64,000 nt of DNA, from NCBI GenBank assembly GCA_002238965.1, contig MPNJ01000002.1, positions 191,001-255,000 on the forward strand, written 5' to 3'. This stretch comes from Nitrospinae bacterium bin107. Lineage in GTDB: Bacteria; UBA8248. The position numbers and the translations under genes were made by a program. This document shows positions 9,257 to 62,932 of the stretch, piece after piece (the stretch's first letter is position 1; the number at the start of each line of letters is the position of its first letter). Below the pieces are notes generated by a model. That model did not search any database. It was not told where the DNA came from and saw only the letters and a program-made list of their open reading frames with translations.

Positions 9257-9805
9257 TCAGGCGGGGGAAGTCTCGTCGCCCTCGCCGAGAGTGCGTTGCA
9301 TGATCACGCAGTCGAGCCATCGGCCGTGCTTGAAGCCGACCGATTGAAGGACGCCTGCGAGCCGGAAGCCGGCTCGCTCGTGCAACTTGACGGAAGCCGC
9401 ATTCGCCGAGTCGCCGATGACGGCGACCATCTGGCGCAAGCCCGATTGAGCGCATGAATCGACCAGCCTGTCGAGCAGCGCCGCACCGAGGCCCTGCCGC
9501 AAGACGCCGCCATCGACGTAGACCGAGTTTTCGACGGTATGGCGGTAGGCGGGCCTTTGGTGGTAAGGCGCCGCGTAGGCGTAACCCCGCACGACGCCTT
9601 CGACCTCCGCGACGAACCAGGGGAGGCCCCTCTCCCTTGCGGTGCGGAAGCGGCGGCGCATCTCCTCGACATCAGGAGGCTGCTCCTCGAACGAGGCCGT
9701 CCCGTGCAGCACGTGATGGGCGTATATCCTCTGGATCGTGGGCAGGTCGTCTTCCGTGGCGTCGCGGACGAGCGGCTCCGCTTTCGAATCGGCCATCACA
9801 GGCAT
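9257..9805 (-). CDS. GNAT acetyltransferase, phosphinothricin/MnaT-like
   Basis: This 182-residue GNAT enzyme should transfer acetyl from acetyl-CoA to an amine. It has the features of the phosphinothricin/methionine-sulfoximine acetyltransferase group: N-terminal VRDATEDDLPTIQRIYAHHV, the WFVAEVEGVVRGYAYA strand pair, ENSVYVDGGVLRQGLGAALL (acetyl-CoA loop, here RQGLGAA) and SVKLHERAGFRLAGVL. An alternative start is ATG 9796 (MADSKAEP). It stands alone and is divergent from the RidA-type gene at 9993. Physiological substrates of this group are often methionine derivatives; resistance to phosphinothricin cannot be assumed. Confidence 0.85.
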   Translation of the reverse strand: MPVMADSKAEPLVRDATEDDLPTIQRIYAHHVLHGTASFEEQPPDVEEMRRRFRTARERGLPWFVAEVEGVVRGYAYAAPYHQRPAYRHTVENSVYVDGGVLRQGLGAALLDRLVDSCAQSGLRQMVAVIGDSANAASVKLHERAGFRLAGVLQSVGFKHGRWLDCVIMQRTLGEGDETSPA

Positions 9806-16119: not shown

Positions 16120-16878
16120 ATGAATGCGGGCAAGCTGGCGAGGCTGTCGGTTTCGATCCTGGTGTTCGTCGGGGTCTGGTGGATGACGAGCGGGACCTTC
16201 TTCGAGGCTGCGATCGTTCCCTCGCCCGTCTCGGTGGCCGAGAAACTCGCCGAGATGATCTGGAACACCGAGCTGTTCGCCCACCTCGGGGCGAGCCTTG
16301 GGCGCATCGTCTTAGGCTACGCCCTGGGCTGCGTCATCGGGATCACGGTCGGGGTGGCGACCGGGGCGATTCGCCTGGCCCGGGACCTCATCGAGCCACC
16401 CCTGGAGTTCTGCCGGAACATCCCGCCGGTGGCCCTCATTCCGCTGGTCGTCTCGATCTTCGGGATCGGCGAGATCGGAAAATACTTCATCATCTCCTAC
16501 GCCGCGGGGATCGCGGTGCTGTTCAACACCGCGGCCGGGGTGGCCTCCACCCCCCAGATCCGGGTGCGTGCCGCCCTTTGCCTGGGCGCGCGCAAACAAG
16601 ACGTCTTCATGCGCATCGTCCTGCCGTCGGCATGGCCCCACATCCTCACCGGGCTGCGGATCGCGCTGGGCTTTTCCTTCATGGGCGTCGTGGCCGCGGA
16701 GATGCTGGCCGCGGACCAGGGAATCGGCTTCCTCATCATGCAGAGCACGAACATCATCGCGCCCGCCGAGATGTTCGTCGGCTTCTTGATGCTGGGCACG
16801 TTCGGCCTCATCACCGACCAGCTCTTCCGGATGACCATCCACAGGCTCATGCGGCGTTATATGATTCCCCTGGCATGA
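16120..16878 (+). CDS. ABC transporter permease 2, NitT/TauT type
   Basis: This 252-residue paralog of the preceding permease shares the VFNTAAGVASTPQIRVRAA-type segment (here LFNTAAGVASTPQIRVRAAL) and the EAA loop ALCLGARKQDVFMRIVLPSA. ATG 16120 has AAAGGGAGG upstream. Most SsuC-type systems use one permease gene as a homodimer, so this tandem duplication points to an asymmetric pore. The stop codon lies inside the first codons of a higA-derived repeat (16875 on), meaning a recombination endpoint falls exactly at the end of this operon. Confidence 0.88.
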   Translation: MNAGKLARLSVSILVFVGVWWMTSGTFFEAAIVPSPVSVAEKLAEMIWNTELFAHLGASLGRIVLGYALGCVIGITVGVATGAIRLARDLIEPPLEFCRNIPPVALIPLVVSIFGIGEIGKYFIISYAAGIAVLFNTAAGVASTPQIRVRAALCLGARKQDVFMRIVLPSAWPHILTGLRIALGFSFMGVVAAEMLAADQGIGFLIMQSTNIIAPAEMFVGFLMLGTFGLITDQLFRMTIHRLMRRYMIPLA

Positions 16879-16970
16879 CATATGACCTCGAAGCGGCGAA
16901 ACGCGAACTCGCCGACGTCCTGCCCGGGATCGAGCCTATGAGTCCGCCGAAAGACGCCATCTCCGCCTGA
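16875..16970 (+). pseudogene. 3' fragment of a higA-like antitoxin gene
   Basis: The frame MTYDLEAAKRELADVLPGIE, then PMSPPKDAISA, matches the last 32 codons of the intact higA at 19426-19779 with a few substitutions. The helix-turn-helix part is missing. The ATG overlaps the permease stop, so it could be translated by coupling, but the product would lack the DNA-binding domain. I read it as the truncated partner copy of the flanking repeat. Confidence 0.7.
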
Positions 16971-17072
16971 AAATCCAGAAGACGGACAACGCCCCGACCG
17001 ACTATCGCGCACCTCCCCTATACGGGGTTGTTGAATACCCTGTTACGAGGCCGGGCGGACCATCGGCGAGGG
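16875..17072. repeat. Left copy of about 198-bp direct repeat (higA end plus downstream DNA)
   Basis: It aligns without large gaps to 19683-19880, covering the last 32 higA codons and about 100 bases of noncoding DNA beyond them, including CCCCTATACGGGGTTGTTGA. Identity is roughly nine in ten bases by eye, so the duplication is not recent. The two copies bracket the ATPase/nuclease-like genes. Confidence 0.75.
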
Positions 17073-17343
17073 GGACGAGACCCCGCCGGTCTGAAACGTG
17101 CGCGGGGGGATTAAGCGGCTATAACTCAATCACTCTGATGATAAGCCGACTGTTCTCTCACCTTTATACGACACACATGGTTAAGACATTACAAGGCAAT
17201 CTTGCCTTTCGGACGTATGCGCACTTATAGTGCGGTGCAGGAATCCATACGCAGAAAAAACAAATGTGAGATTGATGTAATTCGTGCAATTTGCTTCAAG
17301 ACACCTTCGACTACGATACTCTGAGAATCGTGGAGGTGGAGAT
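16971..17343. other. Leader of the AT-rich island; palindrome, no gene seen
   Basis: The first 100 bases belong to the direct repeat. From about 17100 the DNA becomes AT-rich. 17193-17208 is a 16-bp hairpin (AAGGCAA, TC, TTGCCTT), followed by CGTATGCG near 17213 which can pair with CATACG near 17248. These sit where an operator or weak terminator for the next operon could be. No convincing reading frame. Confidence 0.5.
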
Positions 17344-18747
17344 ATGAAAATAAAAGTTAAGAATCTCGGTGTTATTAAACAGGCAGAGTTCAGTCTGGGC
17401 GATTTCACCATCATCTGTGGTGAAAACAACACCGGTAAAACCTATGCGACGTATGCTCTATATGGTTTCTTGGATTTGTGGCGGAAACGTTTTAGCTTTG
17501 ATGACTACCGTTACATACCCGACAAAGCATTCGATGAGTTGAGGGAAAATGGCGTCACTCGTCTTAACATCGCAGAATACGCCCAAAACGCACAAAAAAT
17601 CCTTGACCGGATATGTCGTGGTTACACCTTGGATTTACATGATGTTTTTGCCGCATCTGAGGAGAAATTTCAAGATAGTAAGTTTCAGGTATTCCTGGAA
17701 AATGATGTCTTGTCCTATTCATTAAAACCAATGTCTTTTGAACGCAATATAGGTATAGGCCGCCAGACTCTCTCTCTTACCAAGGAAAAGGGAAATGAAG
17801 AACTGGAAATTTCCTTACTGGTGGACAGGCAAATAAGAAACTTGCCCCCTCGCTTTATTGAACGAAGAATTGCCGGGGCCATCAATAAAATCATTTTCAG
17901 TCCGCTCTTTCCTACTCCTTTCATTGTTAGTGCTGAACGCACCGGTGCTGCGATTTTCCGAAAGGAACTGAACTTCGCTCGTAACCGCTTGCTGAAAGAA
18001 ATGAGTCAGGCGGATGAAAAAATAGATCCTCGGGAGTTGCTGTACAAATCATACCAGGACTATCCATCACCCGTAGAAAAAAATGTTGATTTCACACGTC
18101 AGCTTGAGGACGTTGCCAAGCAAAAAAGCTTTCTCGCCAGCAAACATCCCGAAGTATTGAAGAAGTTCGCCGACATCATTGGTGGAACATATAGGGTGAC
18201 GCGTAACGACGAGCTGTATTTCATTCCCATGGGCAAGCGCGTCAAATTAGGTATGGATGAGAGCGCCAGCGGGGTGCGTTCCATGCTCGACATCGGTTTT
18301 TATTTGCGCCATGTCGCCAAGCGAGGCGACTTGTTGATGGTGGATGAGCCGGAGTTGAACTTGCATCCCGAAAATCAACGCCGCATCGCGCGGCTTTTCG
18401 CGCGACTGGTGAACTTGGGCATCAAGGTATTCATCACCACGCATAGCGACTACATCGTCAAGGAACTAAACACCCTGATCATGCTGAACCAGGATAAAAC
18501 CCACTTGAAAAAAATCGCCAAACGAGAAGGGTATGATAATTCCGAATTTTTAGACCCAGAAAGAATCAAATTATATATCGCGGAAGAGGCTCTCATAAAA
18601 CTCGACGGCAACCAGCGTAGGACAAGATGCCAAACCCTGGTGGAAGCGGAAATAAACCCGGAGTTGGGTATCGAGGCGCGGAGTTTCGACATCACCATCG
18701 ATGAAATGAACCGCATACAGGATGCCATCTTATGGGAGGAAGACTAG
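17344..18747 (+). CDS. AAA ATPase of the OLD/RecF-like (AAA_15/AAA_21) type, defence-like
   Basis: This 467-residue ABC-like ATPase starts at ATG 17344 after TGGAGGTGGAGAT. It has Walker A GENNTGKT (26-33), a degenerate ABC signature ESASGVRS (306-313), Walker B LLMVDEPELNLHP (330-342) and H-loop ITTHSDY (364-370). The MDEPELNLHP/THSD pattern is that of OLD-family and PARIS AriA-like ATPases. The long helical middle (about 100-300) probably forms the SMC-like arm. Unlike OLD nucleases it has no C-terminal TOPRIM domain; after the H-loop there are only about 100 residues. Its stop abuts the GTG of the next gene with no gap. With that nuclease-like partner it resembles two-gene antiphage modules. 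That role is inferred. Confidence 0.82.
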   Translation: MKIKVKNLGVIKQAEFSLGDFTIICGENNTGKTYATYALYGFLDLWRKRFSFDDYRYIPDKAFDELRENGVTRLNIAEYAQNAQKILDRICRGYTLDLHDVFAASEEKFQDSKFQVFLENDVLSYSLKPMSFERNIGIGRQTLSLTKEKGNEELEISLLVDRQIRNLPPRFIERRIAGAINKIIFSPLFPTPFIVSAERTGAAIFRKELNFARNRLLKEMSQADEKIDPRELLYKSYQDYPSPVEKNVDFTRQLEDVAKQKSFLASKHPEVLKKFADIIGGTYRVTRNDELYFIPMGKRVKLGMDESASGVRSMLDIGFYLRHVAKRGDLLMVDEPELNLHPENQRRIARLFARLVNLGIKVFITTHSDYIVKELNTLIMLNQDKTHLKKIAKREGYDNSEFLDPERIKLYIAEEALIKLDGNQRRTRCQTLVEAEINPELGIEARSFDITIDEMNRIQDAILWEED

Positions 18748-19281
18748 GTGCCATCCTGTATCGATAATTTGCGCAGAATACTCCATCAATCATCCATCAC
18801 GGAAGTCTCTGGACAGGGCGTGGCGATTCTGAAAGAAACCGACCCATCAAACTCTTATGAAATTGAATTGAAAGGATTGCCGCCGGACAGCCTCATCGTA
18901 AAGATAGAACGGTTCAAAGAGAAAAGATATTTCCTGAACGGTAGACATGGTATAGCGAGACGCGCCGATTTTGCGATCGTGAATGACGATGCACTCGTAT
19001 TCATTGAGCTTAAATCAGGCAAATTTCAAAGAACGGTCGTCAAGCGGCAACTTCGTGGAGCACAATGCGTAATGGATTATTGCGCCTCGATAGGCAATCG
19101 CTTTTTCAATGATCCGAATTTTCTAAATCCTGCGATAAACAATCCACATCTCGTTTTGCTTCATACTGGAAGAAGCATGAACAAACGCAGGTCCATCGCA
19201 GAAAAAAACCAAAGCTCAAATCATCCTTTCAAGATGATTAAATGTGGCTCTTCGGTATATTATAGAGAACTCTTAAGCTGA
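18748..19281 (+). CDS. PD-(D/E)XK-like putative nuclease, partner of the AAA ATPase
   Basis: This 177-residue protein starts with GTG immediately after the ATPase stop, with GGGAGGAAG upstream. Residues 72-91 read RADFAIVNDDALVFIELKSG, which fits the PD-(D/E)XK nuclease core: Asp74 on one strand, then Glu87-x-Lys89 at the end of the next, followed by a basic helix (QRTVVKRQLRGAQ). The remainder has no motif I recognise. No TOPRIM, HNH or HEPN signature is present. The tight coupling suggests a two-component effector in which the ATPase senses and this subunit cuts or binds nucleic acid. Nuclease activity is inferred from the short motif only. Confidence 0.65.
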   Translation: MPSCIDNLRRILHQSSITEVSGQGVAILKETDPSNSYEIELKGLPPDSLIVKIERFKEKRYFLNGRHGIARRADFAIVNDDALVFIELKSGKFQRTVVKRQLRGAQCVMDYCASIGNRFFNDPNFLNPAINNPHLVLLHTGRSMNKRRSIAEKNQSSNHPFKMIKCGSSVYYRELLS

Positions 19282-19378
19282 ACCGGTGAACTTGATAACC
19301 ACCCATCGGCTGGATATTCGTCCCCCACCGTCTGCTTCATACTTGACTGCTGCGAGAAAGCGACTGACCACATTGAGC

Positions 19379-19426
19379 CATGACGACGGCGCGGCTCTCC
19401 GAGTTGACCTGGAGGACTACCACTGA
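19379..19426 (+). pseudogene. 3' remnant of a higB toxin gene
   Basis: The frame ending at TGA 19424-19426 reads HDDGAALRVDLEDYH. This resembles the C-terminus of HigB/RelE-type toxins (…D.YDVEIVDYH). The stop overlaps the higA start in the TGATG arrangement usual for higBA. No toxin-like sequence exists further upstream, where the DNA turns into the end of the AT-rich island. The toxin has lost nearly all of its body. Confidence 0.55.
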
Positions 19427-19779
19427 TGCGCAAGAAAGAACTCACCGCAGGCGCGCGCGGTATGCGGGCATCCCACCCGGGCGAGGCCTGGGGCGCGATT
19501 CTCAAGGAAGGACTCGGGCTGAGCGTCAGCGAAGCCGCAAAGCGCATGGGTATCTCCCGTCAGCGGCTCCACGCCGTCATCCGCGAGAAGGCTCCCGAGC
19601 GTGTTACGCCGAACCTGGCGCTTCGTTTCACCCGTCTGTGCGGTAAGGACGACGAGGCGGCGAAATTATGGCTGCGCATGCAGATGACCTATGACCTGGA
19701 GGCGGCCAAGCGTGAACTCACCGACGTCCTGCCCGGGATCGAGCCGGCGAGTCCGCCGAAAGACACCGTCTCCGTCTGA
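19426..19779 (+). CDS. higA: HigA-family antitoxin (XRE-type HTH)
   Basis: This 117-residue protein has the HigA hallmark HPGEAWGAILKEGLGLSVSE, then AAKRMGISRQRLHAVIRE (helix-turn-helix) and LALRFTRLCGKDDEAAKLWL, followed by MQMTYDLEAAKREL. HigA neutralises HigB mRNA interferase and represses its own promoter. Here the toxin gene in front is reduced to its last codons, so the antitoxin is orphaned. Its last 32 codons and downstream DNA are duplicated at 16875-17072. Confidence 0.85.
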   Translation: MRKKELTAGARGMRASHPGEAWGAILKEGLGLSVSEAAKRMGISRQRLHAVIREKAPERVTPNLALRFTRLCGKDDEAAKLWLRMQMTYDLEAAKRELTDVLPGIEPASPPKDTVSV

Positions 19780-19880
19780 ACATCCAGAAGACGGACAACA
19801 CCCCGACCGACCATCGCGCCCCTCCCCTATACGGGGTTGTTGAATACCCCGTTTCGAGACCGGGCGGACCCTCGGCGATG
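19683..19880. repeat. Right copy of about 198-bp direct repeat (higA end plus downstream DNA)
   Basis: Counterpart of 16875-17072; this copy is attached to the full-length higA, so it is likely the source. The segment between the two repeats, about 2.6 kb, contains the AAA ATPase and its partner. Confidence 0.75.
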
Positions 19881-20030
19881 GCGACGATAGCCAGCCTACT
19901 TGAATGGCATCGTGGGGGGGGTATCGCCCGAATGCAATGAAGAAGAGACGCTGCGCTGCTCCACGGCGTGAAGCCTTTGCGCTGATGAGTGGAACGGACG
20001 TGATAAGCCGCCTTTTCATTCACACATGCA

Positions 20031-21059
20031 TCAACGGTTTCTCGCCCGGTTGATCATTTGCTCCACTTCTTTGGTTGCTCTGACGTAGATGATACTGACC
20101 TGGGGATGCGTGTTCTTGTAGACCCTGAAAATTTCATCCGCGAAAGCTCGGCCGATGCTCTTGATCCCCTTGAAATCGAGAAGAACCTCCTTGAAGCCAT
20201 CGAGACGCATGAGCAGCCTCCTGGCCTGAGAGCGGGAAATAAGCTCTTCTCCTTCATACAACAGAAGCTGCAGGGGAACGTGGGTTCTGGAAAAATCGAG
20301 GTCCTCCTCGCCGGCGGCGAATTTTTCGAAAATTTCCAGCGACGTTCTTCGGGTCTTTGTATTTATTGCCAACCTGATTATGGTTCCCTGAAGGCTCTCT
20401 CCCTCCGACGTTTCAATCAGCCAGTCATCCTCATCGTTTTCGCGCAGAAAACAAAGGGTTCCCGAAACAATAGTAAACTGGTCGAACATTCGCGAAGTAT
20501 AAAATATCCCATCGCCGGTATGTTTCTCCTCGTCCGTCGTGAGTTTTCCTTTCGATAGTTCCAACAGAGCGTGGCGTGGATCATGCAAGTCGAACTCCGT
20601 CTGGATCTTCCCGAAAATTCCAACGCCTGCGTCCATCACATCAATCGTGATGTTCGTCGCAGTTCGAGACAGGTGAACCCTGGCTTCTTTCGACTCCGAA
20701 TGGTCAATCACGTTATTCAGCATTTCCGTGAAACCGAAATAACAAATGCCATATATGTTCTCGGGAAGTTCTGTCAGGTGGGGTCGTACATATTCACGCC
20801 AAACGCGGTCTTCCTCGATTTCATCGACCTTGAACCTCCAGTTCTCATCCAGGATTTTTCGCAGAGTATACTTGCGCGCACTCGTTGTACCGCTCGATTC
20901 CAGGAAACCGCCATCAACGAGCGATCTCAAGTGCTTGCTCACGGCTGACCTGGAAACCCCGAATCTCTCGGAAGTCACCCTCGCAATATCCCGAGAGTGC
21001 TTTTCAACATTATCGAGGATATACTCTCTTATCCTTTCGGTTTGTCTGACTTTGGCCAT
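20031..21059 (-). CDS. HTH-GHKL ATPase-STAS-like (DUF4325) regulator
   Basis: This 342-residue protein has three parts. The first is an N-terminal winged HTH (IARVTSERFGVSRSAVSKHL). The second is a GHKL ATPase domain with N-box FTEMLNNVIDHS, G1 DAGVGIF and G2 HTGDGIFYTSRMFD. The third is a C-terminal STAS-like DUF4325 domain (VLLDFKGIKSIGRAFADEIF). No phospho-acceptor His or receiver is seen, so the ATPase resembles RsbW/SpoIIAB-type protein kinases rather than two-component sensors. One chain thus holds a DNA binder, a possible Ser/Thr kinase and a STAS-like module. I prefer ATG 21059 to the TTG three codons earlier because AAAGAGG lies nine bases upstream of it. The gene has its own AT-rich promoter region with phased repeats. 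Its target is unknown. Confidence 0.8.
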   Translation of the reverse strand: MAKVRQTERIREYILDNVEKHSRDIARVTSERFGVSRSAVSKHLRSLVDGGFLESSGTTSARKYTLRKILDENWRFKVDEIEEDRVWREYVRPHLTELPENIYGICYFGFTEMLNNVIDHSESKEARVHLSRTATNITIDVMDAGVGIFGKIQTEFDLHDPRHALLELSKGKLTTDEEKHTGDGIFYTSRMFDQFTIVSGTLCFLRENDEDDWLIETSEGESLQGTIIRLAINTKTRRTSLEIFEKFAAGEEDLDFSRTHVPLQLLLYEGEELISRSQARRLLMRLDGFKEVLLDFKGIKSIGRAFADEIFRVYKNTHPQVSIIYVRATKEVEQMINRARNR

Positions 21060-21094
21060 ATAAAACAACCTCTTTGAAACTATTTATGTTATTA

Positions 21095-21274: not shown

Positions 21275-22891
21275 CTACACGCCCAGGATCTTCTTCGCGG
21301 TCTCGCGCGCCTCCTCCAGGGTCTCGACGATGCGCTCCCCGGGCGCGTCGCGCAGAACGTCGAACGCGCGGAGGGTGTGCGCGACGTCGCCCCCGAGGCC
21401 CATCACGATGAACGCGGTGCGCTCCTGCGCGGCGATGTCCATGAGCCGTCTGATGAGCATGGCCGCGCTGTCATCGAGATAGGTGGCGCCCGAAAAATCG
21501 AAGATGACGACTTCGTGATCCTTGATGTCCGCGCTGATGGCCGCGACCAGCTCGTGGGATGAGGCGACGGTGAAGCTCCCCCGGAGCGATACCAGGCCAA
21601 CGCGCGCCGCATACGGGTTCACCGAGGCCGCGTCCTGATGTTCTCCAAAGAAAATGTGGTCGAGCATCGGCACGGAGACCACGTTGTCGATCTCCAGGCG
21701 CTCGAGGTGCCGCGCGTGGGCCATTCCAGCGGCGATGAGGCCTATCGCCACGGCGGTCAGCAGATCGACGAACACCGTGAGGCCGAGCGTCATCAACATG
21801 ACGAAGAGATGCTCGCGCCGGATGTGGCGCACCCGCGCGAGCAGCCGCCAGTCGACGATGTCCCAGCCCACCTTCATCAGGACACCCGCCAGAGCGGCGA
21901 GCGGAATCGACTCGACGTATTGACCGAGACCGAGCAGGAGTGCCAGCAGGAGCACGGCGCGAAGTACGCCCGAAACCCGCGTCTGCCCGCCTGCGCGGAT
22001 GTTCGTCACGGTGCTCACGGTGGCCCCGGCGCCGGGGAGTCCGCCGATGAGGCCCGCGGCCACGTTGCCGATGCCCTGCCCTACCAGTTCGCGGCTCGGG
22101 TTGTGGCGCGAGCCGGTGAGCGAGTCGGCCACCAGGGCGGCGAGAAGGCTGTCGATGGAGCCCAGAAGGGCGAGGACGATCGCCGGTTGCAGGGCGCCTG
22201 CCAGGAAACCGGCGGAGGGCAAACCCAGTTCCAGTCCCGGAAGCCCCGTCGGCATCCGCCCGATAGTGGGCGCGTCGCTCAGCCAGAAGACGCCCAGAAG
22301 CCAGCCGACCACGAGCGCCATAAGAGGAGGAGGTAAAAACCTCGCAAAGCGTCGCGGCCAGAAGGCGAAGGCGGCAAGCGCGGCGGCGCCGACGCCCAGG
22401 GCGTCCGCGTTGATCCCGGCCAGCGCCTCGGGGAGCGCGCGGATTGCGCCCATGAAGCCCCCCGGCGCGGGCGGCGCGCCGAGAAAGGGCAAGGCCTCGA
22501 TCGCCATGATGATGACGCCGATGCCGGACATGAAGCCCGAGACGACCACGTGGGGCGTGTAGACCACGAAGCGCCCGGCGCCCAGCGCACCCAGAAGCAC
22601 CTGCAGCAGGCCGCCCAGAACGACCACGCTCAGGGCTTCGGCCAAGTTCGTTGCGTGGGTGGTGACGATGACCGCCATGGCGACGGTCATCGAAGGCGCA
22701 GGTCCCGAGATGACGGCTCGCGAGCCGCCGAAGAGCGCCGCGAAAAAACCGAGCGCTATCGCGCCATAGAGTCCCGCAGCCGCGCCCAGGCCTGAGGCCA
22801 CGCCGAAAGAGAGCGCGAAGGGAAGCGCCACCACAGTCGAGGTGAGGCCGCCGTAGACGTCTCCGCGAAGCGTCTGGAGATTGTAGTTCAC
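21275..22891 (-). CDS. SulP-family anion transporter with STAS domain (copy 1)
   Basis: This 538-residue protein starts with GTG 22891. About 12-14 membrane segments (for example LTSTVVALPFALSFGVASGL and SGFMSGIGVIIMAIEALPFL) form the SulP core. The GGLPGAGATVSTVTNIRAGG loop is a family signature. A C-terminal cytoplasmic STAS domain begins about residue 430, with FDFSGATYLDDSAAMLIRRL at the usual phosphorylatable loop. SulP proteins move sulfate, bicarbonate, or C4-dicarboxylates; the substrate is not predictable here. It lies 40 bases downstream of its paralog on the same strand, an evident tandem duplication. Confidence 0.88.
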   Translation of the reverse strand: MNYNLQTLRGDVYGGLTSTVVALPFALSFGVASGLGAAAGLYGAIALGFFAALFGGSRAVISGPAPSMTVAMAVIVTTHATNLAEALSVVVLGGLLQVLLGALGAGRFVVYTPHVVVSGFMSGIGVIIMAIEALPFLGAPPAPGGFMGAIRALPEALAGINADALGVGAAALAAFAFWPRRFARFLPPPLMALVVGWLLGVFWLSDAPTIGRMPTGLPGLELGLPSAGFLAGALQPAIVLALLGSIDSLLAALVADSLTGSRHNPSRELVGQGIGNVAAGLIGGLPGAGATVSTVTNIRAGGQTRVSGVLRAVLLLALLLGLGQYVESIPLAALAGVLMKVGWDIVDWRLLARVRHIRREHLFVMLMTLGLTVFVDLLTAVAIGLIAAGMAHARHLERLEIDNVVSVPMLDHIFFGEHQDAASVNPYAARVGLVSLRGSFTVASSHELVAAISADIKDHEVVIFDFSGATYLDDSAAMLIRRLMDIAAQERTAFIVMGLGGDVAHTLRAFDVLRDAPGERIVETLEEARETAKKILGV

Positions 22892-22931
22892 GGGAGGAAA
22901 CCCTTTTCCATCATGTGACGCATCCTACGCC

Positions 22932-24554
22932 TCAAACCCCCACGAGAGGCTTCGCGATCTCTCGCGCCTGGTCCAGGTTCTCCACGATTCGCTCATCCGG
23001 CACCTCGCGCAGGACGTCGAGCGCATCGAGGGTCTCCGCCACGTCGCCCGAAAGCCCGATGACGATGGACTCGGTATCTTCTTCGGTGGCGACTTCGATG
23101 AGTTGCTTGATGACCATGGCGGCGCTGTCGTCGATGTAGGTGGCGTCCGTGAAATTGAAGATGACGACTTCATGATCCTTGATGTCGAGGCTTATCGTCC
23201 GTACGAGTTTCTTGGACGACGCGACGGTGAAGCTCCCCCGGAGCGCCACCATGCCGACGCGCGCCTCGAACGGGTCGACCCCTTCCACCTCTTCTCCCTC
23301 GTAGAGGAACATCTGGTCCAGCAGGGGTACGGAGACCACGCTGTCGAGTTCCAGGTTCTCGAGTTGTCCCGCGTGGGCCAGACCCGCGACGATGAGGCCT
23401 ATCGCCACGGCGCTTATCAGGTCGACGAACACCGTGAGCAACAGCGTCGTCAGGAGGACGAAGAGGTGTTCGCGCTTGATGCGCTGGAGGCGGGTGAGCA
23501 GACCCCAGTCGATGATGTCCCAGCCCACCTTGATCAGAACGCCCGCGAGAGCGGCGAGCGGAATCGATTCCACGTACGGCCCGAGGCCCAGCAGGATCGC
23601 CAGCAGGAACACCGCGAATATCGCACCCGCCGCCCGGGTCCGCCCGCCGGAGCGTATGTTCGGCACGGTGTAGACGGGGGTGCCTGCGCCGGGCAGTCCG
23701 CCGATGAGGCCCGCCGCCGCGTTGCCGATTCCCTGGCCGATGAGTTCGCGGTCCGGGTCGTGGCTCGTGCGGGTCATCGAGTCGGCCACCAGGCAGGTGA
23801 GAAGGCTCACCACCGATCCGATCAGGGCGAGAATGAGCGCGGGCTCCACAGCGTGCGCCAGAAAGCCCAGGGAGGGCAGCCCGATTTGCAGCCCCGGCAA
23901 ACCCGTCGGCACCCTCCCGATGACGGGCGCATCTTGCAGCCACACCACGCCGATGAGCGTTCCGGCGAAAAGTCCCACCAGGGGCGTGGGAAGAATTTTC
24001 CGGAACCGCGGCGGCCAGAAGACCGCGACGCCGAGCGTGACGAGCCCGACCCCGAAAGCGCTCGGGTTGAGGTCGCGCACCGCCTCGGGCAGCGCGAAAA
24101 TCATGCCGACGGCGCCGCCGGGCGCGGGCGCCGAGCCGAGAAATGGCAGCACCTGAATCGCCATCACGAGGACACCGATCCCGGACATGAAGCCCGAGAC
24201 GACCACATAGGGCGTGTAGGCCACGAAGCGGCCGAGCTTCAATACACCCAGGAGGGCTTGCAGGAGACCGCCCATCACGACGACCGTCAGGGCTTCGGTG
24301 AGATCTTTCGCATACGTGGAGATGACGACCGCCATCACGATGGCCATCGGCGCGGTGGGGCCGGAAATCTGGGTCGCCGTTCCGCCGAAGACGGCCGCGA
24401 AAAAGCCCACCGCAATCGCGCCGTACAGCCCCGCCGCAGCCCCCATGCCGGACGCCACGCCGTAGGCCAGAGACAGCGGCAAGGCCACCACCATGGCGGT
24501 GACGCCCCCGAAAAGGTCTCCCCGAAGCGTATCGAAATCGTATTTCAATTTCAC
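22932..24554 (-). CDS. SulP-family anion transporter with STAS domain (copy 2)
   Basis: This 540-residue paralog aligns with the next gene over its whole length (TLRGDLFGGVTAMVVALPLS, GGLPGAGTPVYTVPNIRSGG, and the STAS loop FNFTDATYIDDSAAMVIKQL). I use GTG 24554 because it makes the N-terminus equivalent to that of the paralog; an ATG at 24602 would add 16 residues without family support. The STAS domains of both copies keep the DDSAAM motif. Being first in the pair, it probably shares a promoter with copy 1. Substrate is unknown. Confidence 0.86.
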   Translation of the reverse strand: MKLKYDFDTLRGDLFGGVTAMVVALPLSLAYGVASGMGAAAGLYGAIAVGFFAAVFGGTATQISGPTAPMAIVMAVVISTYAKDLTEALTVVVMGGLLQALLGVLKLGRFVAYTPYVVVSGFMSGIGVLVMAIQVLPFLGSAPAPGGAVGMIFALPEAVRDLNPSAFGVGLVTLGVAVFWPPRFRKILPTPLVGLFAGTLIGVVWLQDAPVIGRVPTGLPGLQIGLPSLGFLAHAVEPALILALIGSVVSLLTCLVADSMTRTSHDPDRELIGQGIGNAAAGLIGGLPGAGTPVYTVPNIRSGGRTRAAGAIFAVFLLAILLGLGPYVESIPLAALAGVLIKVGWDIIDWGLLTRLQRIKREHLFVLLTTLLLTVFVDLISAVAIGLIVAGLAHAGQLENLELDSVVSVPLLDQMFLYEGEEVEGVDPFEARVGMVALRGSFTVASSKKLVRTISLDIKDHEVVIFNFTDATYIDDSAAMVIKQLIEVATEEDTESIVIGLSGDVAETLDALDVLREVPDERIVENLDQAREIAKPLVGV

Positions 24555-24751
24555 GCGATTATACCCCTTCGCGCTTCGTTCCCGGGCGATTGTCGTGATC
24601 ATCGCATGTTCTTCGACAGCATATCACACCACCGTCGTATCGTGAGCGAGCGTGCGGAGGCATCACCGGGCCTGCTTCCCCGCACGCGCCGTTTGATGGT
24701 ATGAATGGCGCGGCTTCATCGTTCAACCTTTCTCCCCACCCTGGAATCCGC

Positions 24752-27023: not shown

Positions 27024-27944
27024 ATGCGTTTGCCCATTAAACCACTCATAGCGATACTATATTTGTGGTTCGCATTATGGATGAGTGCGATCCCATCGAT
27101 AGCAGCGATATCTTGTATGAAGTGGAACACGGGTACCTTCTTCAGAATTGCTGATGAGGAAGATGTTTCACGTTGCCTAAAGGGTGGGGCCAACGCAAAC
27201 GCACGCGATAAATACGGAGAAACACCCCTGCATTGGGCAGCAATACACACTAAAACGTCAGCAGTCGTGACAGCCTTGGTGGAGGCCGGGGCCAAGATCA
27301 ATGCTCGAAACGAAGACGGGGATACACCCTTGCATCATGCTGTGAGTCATAAATACCCTGCGGTTGTAAGGGCCTTGCTGAAAGCGGAAGCCGACGTAAA
27401 CGCGAGAGACAAGAACGGATTCACACCTTTACACAGAGCGGCAGCAGCAGGAGGTGGCAGACAAGGTGCAATCCTTGGCGCCAATTTCAGAGCCAGAACA
27501 ATCGGCTTGAAAACCTCTCTAGCGGCCCTCAAGGATGGGCACTCACCTGCGGAGGCCAAACGGAAGGGTAGATTGGCCGAGACTGCCTACAAGCAGGCTG
27601 CACGTAAAAGGATATTTAAGGAGATAGACGGAGGAAATCCTGCAGTTGTAACCGCTCTCTTGGATGCAGGATCGAATCCCAATACACGAGATAAGAATAA
27701 ACGTACTTCCCTGCATTGGGCGGCAGAATATAGTATCCCGGCGATCGTAGCAGCGTTACTAGAAGCGGGTGCCAGCCCAACGGCAAAAGATAAAAAAAGC
27801 AATACAGCGTGGGACTTAGCGAAAGAAAACCCCTCGCTCAAAGGCACCGATGTCTATTGGCAGTTGAACGAAGCGAGGTTCAAAACCCCGTCTCCCCGAA
27901 AACAAAAGGAAAAATTGGGGAGCGGAAAGCTTTATACTTTTTAA
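27024..27944 (+). CDS. Secreted ankyrin-repeat protein with internal insertion
   Basis: This 306-residue protein has a signal peptide (LIAILYLWFALWMSAIPSIAA). Ankyrin repeats start near residue 45 (DVSRCLKGGANANARDKYGE), continue as TPLHWAAIH, TPLHHAVSH and TPLHRAAAA, are then broken by about 55 residues of basic, low-similarity sequence (about 150-205), and resume as GGNPAVVTALLDAGSNPNTR and TSLHWAAEY. The C-terminal tail is basic. Ankyrin repeats mediate protein binding; a periplasmic or secreted location is inferred. The insertion may be a degraded repeat unit or a grafted segment. Composition is AT-richer than the neighbouring metabolic genes. Confidence 0.8.
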   Translation: MRLPIKPLIAILYLWFALWMSAIPSIAAISCMKWNTGTFFRIADEEDVSRCLKGGANANARDKYGETPLHWAAIHTKTSAVVTALVEAGAKINARNEDGDTPLHHAVSHKYPAVVRALLKAEADVNARDKNGFTPLHRAAAAGGGRQGAILGANFRARTIGLKTSLAALKDGHSPAEAKRKGRLAETAYKQAARKRIFKEIDGGNPAVVTALLDAGSNPNTRDKNKRTSLHWAAEYSIPAIVAALLEAGASPTAKDKKSNTAWDLAKENPSLKGTDVYWQLNEARFKTPSPRKQKEKLGSGKLYTF

Positions 27945-38589: not shown

Positions 38590-39690
38590 TCAGGCGTTTT
38601 GCGTCTTGTTCGGGCCGTCTCCGATGACAGCGGAAATGCGGTCCGATAACGCTTTGCTAAATTCCTCTAATTTCCCTGGCTCCCAAGTAATATGATTGTA
38701 CTGTCGCGTGTCGAAGTGAACCTTCTCCACTAAGTCCGCTCGACAAGTGAATATCACCGGGATGTTCAGCCCGTGCGCGAAACCCGCTTCGTAATATACG
38801 CTCCCGCGCGCTCCAACCTTCTTGAGTTCCTCCTTGTCCTTGCAGTTCTCGATTTCTTCGATATCTTTATAAGTGAAGTCGGCAACGAGGAAGCGAGAGC
38901 GCCTGATCTCAGCGATAATCTCATCGTCTATTTTCCTTATATGATGTTTTTGCTTGATGATGAGTGGCTTATACCCGGCATCTCTTATTCCAGTTTCGAT
39001 GCCGTCTTGATAAACATCTTCCACACTTTCATCGAACCACATGGCAACAAAAGCTTGGGATGAATCCGTAGCTGCTTTATCGAGTTCGGCGAGATGAGCG
39101 TAGCCTTCGACTGTTATGTGGTCAGTCTCGCGTCCTTCAAATTTTAAAGTTTCAATCCAACCTTGTGTCTCTAAATAATTAAGAAAAAATTGCAATTCCC
39201 TTCTTTGAGAACTTATTGCAGACGTGTTTACCGTTGATTCCAACCATGCCAACATATTTAAAAATCTATTGTCATTTTCACTTGTTACAGAATTTATACC
39301 AGCCCCAGCGTGCCGCTCCAGTTGCCCGAGATATCTAAGCAGTCTGTCCGCACGCTCGTGGACTGGCAAATGTGGTCGCCGTTCCACTTGCTCAATTGTT
39401 TTTGGCGTTATTTCAGGATACTCGACACCCAACCGCCGTTGCTCTATTAACCAAGAAGTCAATCGTGCTTTATGATAGTTAGCCTTCCTAGGTCTTTCCA
39501 TGAAACCATCTTCCTTGGTATCCGCTTGTCCAAGTTCATCTTCTATATTTTTCAGTTCCGTTTGCGCTGCAAAGAAAATGAAATACTTTCCCCCAGCGCG
39601 AGGCGAATCCACAAATTTTCCATTACGCAAGTTAGGAGGTTCAATGGAAGCTACCGTTCCCCATATCGGACACACTGAATTTTCACTCAT
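38590..39690 (-). CDS. Winged-helix protein with C-terminal nucleoside 2-deoxyribosyltransferase-like domain
   Basis: This is a 366-residue protein. Residues 5-35 (SVCPIWGT, then VDSPRAGGKYFI) resemble a decayed zinc ribbon. 155-205 look like a winged helix (QRRELQFFLNYLETQGWIET). 211-337 match the nucleoside deoxyribosyltransferase/TIR-like N-glycosidase fold: SQAFVAMWFDESVEDVYQDG, ISRFLVADFTY-like RRSRFLVADFTY with D271, and GSVYYEAGFAHGLNIPVIF with the catalytic-type E301. Relatives of this fold cleave N-glycosidic bonds, including NAD or nucleotides in defence. It is AT-rich, stands alone and faces the catabolic cluster convergently. A defence or stress role is inferred. Confidence 0.75.
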   Translation of the reverse strand: MSENSVCPIWGTVASIEPPNLRNGKFVDSPRAGGKYFIFFAAQTELKNIEDELGQADTKEDGFMERPRKANYHKARLTSWLIEQRRLGVEYPEITPKTIEQVERRPHLPVHERADRLLRYLGQLERHAGAGINSVTSENDNRFLNMLAWLESTVNTSAISSQRRELQFFLNYLETQGWIETLKFEGRETDHITVEGYAHLAELDKAATDSSQAFVAMWFDESVEDVYQDGIETGIRDAGYKPLIIKQKHHIRKIDDEIIAEIRRSRFLVADFTYKDIEEIENCKDKEELKKVGARGSVYYEAGFAHGLNIPVIFTCRADLVEKVHFDTRQYNHITWEPGKLEEFSKALSDRISAVIGDGPNKTQNA

Positions 39691-62077: not shown

Positions 62078-62932
62078 ATGAAAGAAACAACAGGGATAAT
62101 CAAAACTTGGGATGAATTATCAGGGAAAGGAACAATTGAAGGGGATGACGGCAAGACTTATGATTTCACTCAGAAACAGTGGACCGTACCAACTCAACCC
62201 GAAATTCAAGGTAGTGTCCGTGTGATATGCCAGAATGGAAGAGATGCATCTAAGGTAGAATATATCTACATCGAAAAAATGCCTCAGATAAGAATAAAAA
62301 CCTATTCGCAAGAAGGGGAATTATTGTTAGATGAACAGAGAAGGTTTATAGGAGGACCTTGGCGGATGCGATCTGATGCTTTGGCTTGGATGATAACCGC
62401 TAATAATCTTCATAGCCAAACATACAAATCCGAAATTGAAGATATCAGCAGCTTACTCTTAGAAGAGAATCTGCTTATTAGCATTCGTGGGTCAGTAATC
62501 AAATATTGTTATGGGTTTGCTATTGAATTGTATCTCAAATGGATATTGACTGAAGCAAAGATAGAATTTCAAGAAAATCACAAACTCACTCCCCTGCTTC
62601 AAAAACTTCCTGCACCTGTTCTTAAAAATCTGAGAAGTAAATATGTGACTCATAAAGACAGAAATCAAATGAATTTTAAAATGATGAACGCAGATGTGAA
62701 TGGTGTGAATGAATTAAATCTTGATTGGTCAACATTTGATAATTTTACAAATAATTTAGACAACCAGAAATTCATAATTGGAAGATATGCATCACCTGAA
62801 ATTTATAGCCTATTCCCATCAATTTCGAGTAATTTGTCATTGGAAATGAATTCATACATGGATTCAAATGACTTTTTTGATATCGGTGACACAATTTTGT
62901 CATACATACCTCCTCTCGACGATTACCAATAA
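62078..62932 (+). CDS. Cold-shock-like plus HEPN-like domain protein, toxin/defence candidate
   Basis: This is a 284-residue AT-rich gene product. Residues 1-65 resemble a cold-shock/OB strand set (GIIKTWDELSGKGTIEGDDG, then SVRVICQNG). Residues about 135-200 look like a HEPN bundle: RGSVIKYCYGFAIELYLKWI, NHKLTPLLQKLPAPVL, and a R-x5-H motif R186-H192 (RSKYVTH) in the place of the HEPN RNase active site. The C-terminal 80 residues are unassigned. HEPN domains often act as RNA cutters in toxin and abortive systems. AAGGGAAAGGAAAC precedes the ATG. No antitoxin-like partner is visible. Both domain calls are by eye. Confidence 0.6.
   Translation: MKETTGIIKTWDELSGKGTIEGDDGKTYDFTQKQWTVPTQPEIQGSVRVICQNGRDASKVEYIYIEKMPQIRIKTYSQEGELLLDEQRRFIGGPWRMRSDALAWMITANNLHSQTYKSEIEDISSLLLEENLLISIRGSVIKYCYGFAIELYLKWILTEAKIEFQENHKLTPLLQKLPAPVLKNLRSKYVTHKDRNQMNFKMMNADVNGVNELNLDWSTFDNFTNNLDNQKFIIGRYASPEIYSLFPSISSNLSLEMNSYMDSNDFFDIGDTILSYIPPLDDYQ

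Follow-up and report, generated by a model that had tools for sequence, protein, structure and literature searches.

Introduction

Operons that join an "OLD-ABC ATPase" to a "novel REase" were recognized in a 2020 survey of ABC ATPases, cited in PMC12137116. That paper reports that WonAB, encoded by the Vibrio WASA-1 prophage, protects against phage by abortive infection and requires both genes, the ATPase residues and the nuclease lysine for protection. In the same paper, WonB is lost once the WonA ATPase is inactive, and a WonA-WonB complex is predicted in which the partners are seated on dimerised C-terminal extensions of WonA. In PMC9519451, PD-T4-4 of E. coli is named among systems identified by phage selection. 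PDC-M47 is a candidate system of PADLOC-DB 2.0.0 (2023); no published test of any of its members was found, and the name was absent from the papers searched.

Here we describe a pair of genes, A and B, within a 64,000-nucleotide stretch of contig MPNJ01000002.1 from Nitrospinae bacterium bin107 (the window; positions below are window positions on the plus strand unless stated otherwise). A first-pass annotation of this DNA had proposed an undescribed defence module. The matches of both proteins to PDC-M47 models, together with their relatives WonAB and PD-T4-4, favor a probable defence module by analogy, but the word "undescribed" has to be withdrawn: PDC-M47A and PDC-M47B are already in PADLOC-DB 2.0.0, and PD-T4-4 and WonAB share the architecture.

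The ATPase gene

Gene A (17344–18747) opens with an ATG at 17344, closes with a TAG at 18745–18747, and encodes a 467-residue OLD-like ABC ATPase of the PDC-M47A type, the proposed sensor/regulator, as judged from its open reading frame, Pfam, PADLOC and a predicted model. Pfam assigned AAA_15 (1.4e-29) and found AAA/SMC-type domains only, without TOPRIM. The PDC-M47A model of PADLOC matched at 1.1e-218 (725 bits), aligning residues 1–466 with model positions 1–460 of 461, and PD-T4-4_A matched the full length (residues 1–465; 5.5e-162, 538 bits). Both scores lie far above those of AriA (8.3e-32), OLD, GajA and PtuA. The AAA_15 and AriA matches agree with the earlier description of an OLD/AriA-like ATPase without TOPRIM, and the motifs it listed, Walker A (GENNTGKT), Walker B (LLMVDEPELNLHP) and THSD, are all found; a signature-like ESAS/ESSS motif and an invariant ERTG motif, both unmentioned at that stage, are present as well.

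Searching one genome per species confirmed 128 relatives of A, and the 80 best of these were carried forward. Record titles place these 80 in many phyla and one archaeal bin, and relatives also occur on plasmid and phage records; those on E. coli plasmids share 27–33% identity, and both Escherichia proteins that were scanned fit PD-T4-4_A best. In alignment A3, comprising the window protein and those of 52 of the 80 loci hand-picked for spread, K32 and E335 are conserved in 53/53 sequences and H367 in 52/53, and E198-R199-T200-G201 is invariant. The predicted model (pLDDT 79) matched PtuA, the retron-Eco8 effector and Rad50 with Foldseek E-values of ~1e-8 to 1e-6, at TM values of only 0.25–0.35, and cohesin SMC1A was also among its structure matches.

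The partner gene

Gene B (18748–19281) encodes a 177-residue PD-(D/E)XK-like nuclease (PDC-M47B), the proposed effector, on the evidence of PADLOC, its predicted model and conserved residues. Its GTG start at 18748 touches the TAG of A, as the first-pass annotation had reported, and its TGA stop occupies 19279–19281. Four PDC-M47B models of PADLOC match the protein (best 8e-30, 102 bits); the only other PADLOC match at E<=1 is HEC-02B at 0.049, and no PD-T4-4_B match was returned at that threshold. The window protein is divergent, scoring 102 bits against PDC-M47B versus 204 for a member from a cyanobacterial plasmid. No Pfam family was found in it, a Pfam scan of all 74 aligned B proteins gave just scattered matches, each in 1–3 members, and no solved-structure relative was found by sequence at E<=10.

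The small protein had been read as PD-(D/E)XK-like from a nuclease-like core in its sequence, and the three residues named in it, D74, E87 and K89, were numbered correctly and prove to be strongly conserved. In alignment A2, consisting of the window and 73 loci (L074, which is interrupted, and L078, in which a contig end cuts B, were left out of 75), D74 and Q101 are kept in 74/74 sequences, E87 in 73/74 and K89 in 71/74, so that E87 is missing from one protein and K89 from three. The predicted model (pLDDT 86) places D74 immediately before strand 75–78 and E87-x-K89 in the next strand, 83–90, followed by a helix (95–119) that carries Q101, a layout of strands and helix that we take to be the PD-(D/E)XK core arrangement. 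The strand order suggests that D74, E87 and K89 lie near each other, and the neighboring strands of the model lend no support to the opposite arrangement, three residues far apart, which had been named as evidence against a nuclease. D74 and E87-x-K89 fall by adjacent strands. Matches to solved structures are weak: the best from Foldseek has E 0.013, none reaching 0.001, and VIA Z-scores go up to 5.6, under the tool's caution value of 8. Most of the 50 VIA matches listed are, we presume, PD-(D/E)XK enzymes such as Can2, McrC, HamA, Hjc, EndoMS, Bse634I and FokI, and Holliday-junction resolvases are among the weak structural matches.

Family membership and linkage of the two genes

Judged by their profile matches, A and B both belong to one catalogued candidate system, PDC-M47, because A matches PDC-M47A and B matches PDC-M47B. 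PDC-M47B is matched by 74/74 B proteins, and at least 59/74 also match a PD-T4-4_B model at E<=0.01. The partners of ATPases from an E. coli plasmid, an E. albertii plasmid, a Vibrio phage and a Bernardetia plasmid match both B families, and the partner of a Serratia ATPase matches PD-T4-4_B only. Given these B proteins and partners that match both B families, PDC-M47 and PD-T4-4 look homologous in both components. On a Serratia plasmid record (L117:1917–4377), a cut-short ATPase gene and its PD-T4-4_B-like partner are enclosed by a recombinase gene set that is present twice, in opposite orientations.

Homologs of the ATPase neighbor the small gene throughout, the alternative having been put forward earlier as grounds for doubt: B or a fragment of it follows A in 80/80 of the closest relatives (75 found by phmmer and five by profile). 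With the start candidate nearest A's stop chosen by script, B begins between -4 and +5 nt from that stop in 74 of the 75 phmmer-positive loci. A few copies of B are damaged. At L074 (6380–7768) several hundred inserted bases split it after ~28 residues, at L043 and L077 it is frameshifted and at L081 it is cut short, and the frame of A is open at all four. L029 retains a piece of B, found by profile, that ends near the contig end, and at L053 a contig end cuts B (weak profile match, E 0.05) and A is itself interrupted by a stop.

The association extends to viral contigs, in which 16 distant ATPase relatives (27–42% identity) each have an ORF of 187–240 aa beside them. Searched against 19 sequences, a B profile finds all 16 of these ORFs, with E-values between 2.8e-12 and 0.018, and the narrow D...ExK pattern fits just 1/16. 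Scanning the viral contigs with the B alignment gave 23 pattern matches, 0 of which were confirmed as a B relative. Across 50 shared loci, the pairwise distances of A and B are correlated (rho 0.66, reached by 0/2000 permutations). Over these loci A has a median identity of 0.62 and B one of 0.43, so B is the faster-evolving of the two.

Genomic setting and the higBA locus

The pair is AT-rich, as first described, with a GC content of 0.46 in A and 0.43 in B versus 0.625–0.643 in the three kilobases leftward; the right side is mixed (0.50–0.69). A 213-bp direct repeat, with copies 88% identical, brackets the two genes, in agreement with the repeat-bracketed island reported earlier. The right copy (19684–19896) contains the 3' part of higA and downstream DNA, and the left copy (16875–17087), which begins at the stop of a permease gene, is a duplicate of the higA 3' end with downstream DNA; the bracketing repeat is, by sequence comparison, a duplicated higA tail. 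Part of its higA-downstream portion (19820–19872) belongs to a short dispersed repeat with further copies, 83–91% identical over 34–48 bp, elsewhere in this genome and in those of congeners.

The adjoining toxin-antitoxin locus is broken on one side, as had been recognized. higA (19426–19779) is intact and encodes a 117-aa HigA-family antitoxin/Xre-type regulator (TIGR02607, 5e-17), and higB is reduced to its last ~14 codons (DDGAALRVDLEDYH, 19372–19425), which run up to the higA start. The remnant would carry the ribosome-binding site of higA and is perhaps retained for that reason.

The immediate neighbors are an ABC transporter, SulP-type transporters and a STAS/HATPase regulator, none of them a recognized defence gene. 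The names permease, SulP and GNAT are our own readings of the sequence; profiles were run on a GNAT gene at another place in the window (9260–9805) and on the STAS-like gene. The latter (20031–21068, minus strand, GC 0.49) matches DUF4325 (STAS-like) and, more weakly, wHTH and HATPase_c_2; it is possibly a regulator beside the cassette, and it occurs in congener G005 without the cassette. Beyond it lie two tandem similar genes (21278–24602), ~66% identical over part of their length, which adjoin higA in several congeners and which we take to be SulP-type transporters. Farther along, the window holds an AT-rich ankyrin-repeat gene (27024–27941; Ank_2 3.7e-36, PADLOC PDC-M72A 1.8e-26), an AT-rich ORF of 366 aa (38593–39690) with no Pfam match at 1e-3 and a weak match to a PADLOC TIR effector model (3.6e-06), and an ORF of 284 aa (62078–62929; GC 0.35) with no Pfam match at 1e-3 and no PADLOC match at 1e-5, possibly a recent acquisition.

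Full-length A occurs in 3/7 genomes of the genus and 0/11 other genomes of the family, several of these assemblies being incomplete. The cassette shared with L004 (Nitrospinota bacterium RHO1_bin_79), a locus identical over 4401 bases to that of G004, spans 17115–19783, covers the upstream region, A, B, the higB remnant and higA, and is 82% identical there, with other genes on both flanks than in the window. The homologous block of G002 corresponds to 17065–19787 (81%). The upstream region, A, B, the higB remnant and higA are the DNA common to all three cassettes, and the genes directly outside them differ; G002 shares a SulP-type gene that lies one gene further on in the window.

Gene content at the GNAT-SulP locus differs among the congeners. 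G006 has higB-higA there, with an in-frame stop near the end of higB; G002 has A-B-higB remnant-higA; G001 has a higB remnant and higA, with no A-B; and in G003 neither A-B, higB nor higA was found in the stretch searched. By this comparison, A-B takes up the place of most of higB. In the window itself the cassette is flanked by the permease and the STAS-like gene, and G005 has a GNAT-like gene at that position. In this genus, on the evidence of the aligned loci, the module occupies the place of higB and travels with higA. Estimates of dN/dS for the three congener pairs are 0.09–0.19 for A, 0.17–0.21 for B and 0.18 in each pair for higA, values by which all three genes are under purifying selection among these congeners.

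A candidate promoter and possible control by HigA

A promoter-like site (TTGCCT-18-TATAGT, 17202–17231) lies upstream of A, its second hexamer overlain by a palindrome, CGCACTTATAGTGC (17220–17233). All three cassettes of the genus carry the site and the palindrome. The palindrome is a possible operator. One promoter-like site was found where shuffles give 3.4 on expectation, a result that alone is not significant. The palindrome agrees with the region upstream of higB in G006 at 11/14 bases, and 87/20000 mononucleotide shuffles did as well; this match is a lead only, because the motif was chosen with the two regions already in view and both lie on -10-like sequence. A pattern derived from the palindrome has 6 sites in the 7 genomes, four of them its source sites, and its reversed control has 19.

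These observations raise a doubtful but specific idea for the genus, that the ATPase-nuclease module replaced HigB in higBA, that HigA represses the A-B promoter through the -10 palindrome, and that the whole moves as one mobile cassette. The G001 locus counts against control by HigA: it keeps higA and a higB remnant without A-B, and higA can therefore persist without the pair. If the idea were true, a defence operon under the control of HigA would have arisen from a toxin-antitoxin switch, with higA kept as the module's own regulator.

Proposed function and alternatives

We consider it highly probable that A-B is an anti-phage member of PDC-M47, in which an OLD-class ATPase sensor licenses a PD-(D/E)XK nuclease that stops phage production. 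What the sequences themselves show is that the pair belongs to the family, that its genes lie tightly together, that the motifs of ATPase and nuclease are conserved, that selection is purifying and that the distribution is patchy. By analogy with relatives, A, an OLD-class ABC ATPase, would dimerise and sense infection, and B, a small PD-(D/E)XK-type nuclease, would be held and licensed by A. Activated B would cut nucleic acid and phage production would stop, the outcome probably being abortive infection or growth arrest. The A dimer, the A-B complex, the defence phenotype and the abortive outcome we infer from relatives only; a role in defence is likely.

An addiction or toxin-antitoxin-like module serving to maintain a mobile element, with B as a toxic nuclease, A as its keeper and defence incidental, would suit the position of the pair, which takes the place of higB next to higA in 3/7 congeners. 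It would also suit the loss of WonB with an inactive WonA ATPase reported in PMC12137116, by which the ATPase affects the level of its partner. However, WonAB, a relative put to the test, is reported to defend against phage, and in 3/80 loci (L043, L077 and L081) an open A stands beside a frameshifted or truncated B, so that, barring errors of assembly, the loss of B appears to be tolerated; we regard an addiction module as rather unlikely. A housekeeping pair for DNA repair or recombination, Rad50/RecF-like, is very improbable. The Rad50 and cohesin SMC1A matches of A and the Holliday-junction resolvases among the weak matches of B point toward it, against a distribution of full-length A limited to 3/7 genomes of the genus and 0/11 others of the family (some assemblies incomplete), relatives scattered over many phyla, an archaeal bin and plasmid and phage records, and best profile matches that are defence candidates. 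Least credible of all is a decayed island in which A and B are functionless remnants like the adjoining higB, for although a broken higB and a duplicated higA tail lie alongside, both frames are full length, dN/dS is 0.09–0.21 and the catalytic motifs are kept.

Read as a PDC-M47 defence pair, the locus adds a full-length member, under purifying selection, from a lineage known from metagenome bins. What is new locally is that it has settled in a higBA locus that still has its higA; the type of system is already catalogued, and the replacement of higB offers an example of a defence pair lodging in a toxin-antitoxin locus. Through their apparent homology, PDC-M47, a computational candidate, is connected to PD-T4-4, which phage selection had uncovered, and the alignments supply residues for mutation: K32, R199, E335 and H367 in A, and D74, E87, K89 and Q101 in B.

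Comparison with known systems

The first-pass annotation had set the pair apart from PARIS, Gabija and Septu, and the absence of AriB, TOPRIM/UvrD and HNH partners or domains upholds that separation. PARIS resembles the locus in its AAA_15/OLD-like ATPase (AriA model, 8.3e-32) and differs in its partner, as B matches no AriB (TOPRIM-type) model in PADLOC at E<=1; an identity with PARIS was rejected on this ground, the matches of B being the four PDC-M47B models and HEC-02B at 0.049. Gabija and OLD were rejected since A lacks TOPRIM, the UvrD partner of Gabija is absent and B has no Pfam family. Septu and the retron PtuAB share the ATPase fold (Foldseek E ~1e-8) adjoining a nuclease gene, but their nuclease is HNH and the partner here is PD-(D/E)XK-like; no HNH family was found in B with Pfam or PADLOC, and an identity with Septu was rejected.

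PDC-M47 is matched in the family models of both window proteins and in an identical gene order and adjacency. The window locus departs from it in the divergence of its B protein and in higA, which stands beside only one of the 80 loci, the congener L004, the sole hit of a phmmer search with HigA. PD-T4-4 shares a full-length match to A, the pairing of an ATPase gene with a small nuclease gene, and B families that match each other, although the window B itself reaches no PD-T4-4_B model. WonAB of the Vibrio WASA-1 prophage is likened to A-B by its published description, an operon of an OLD-ABC ATPase and a PD-(D/E)xK nuclease in PMC12137116. Taking residue numbers from that paper, the spacing of the residues suggests a shorter insert in WonA, and the order of the residues mutated in WonA, K-R-E-H, agrees with K32-R199-E335-H367 of A.
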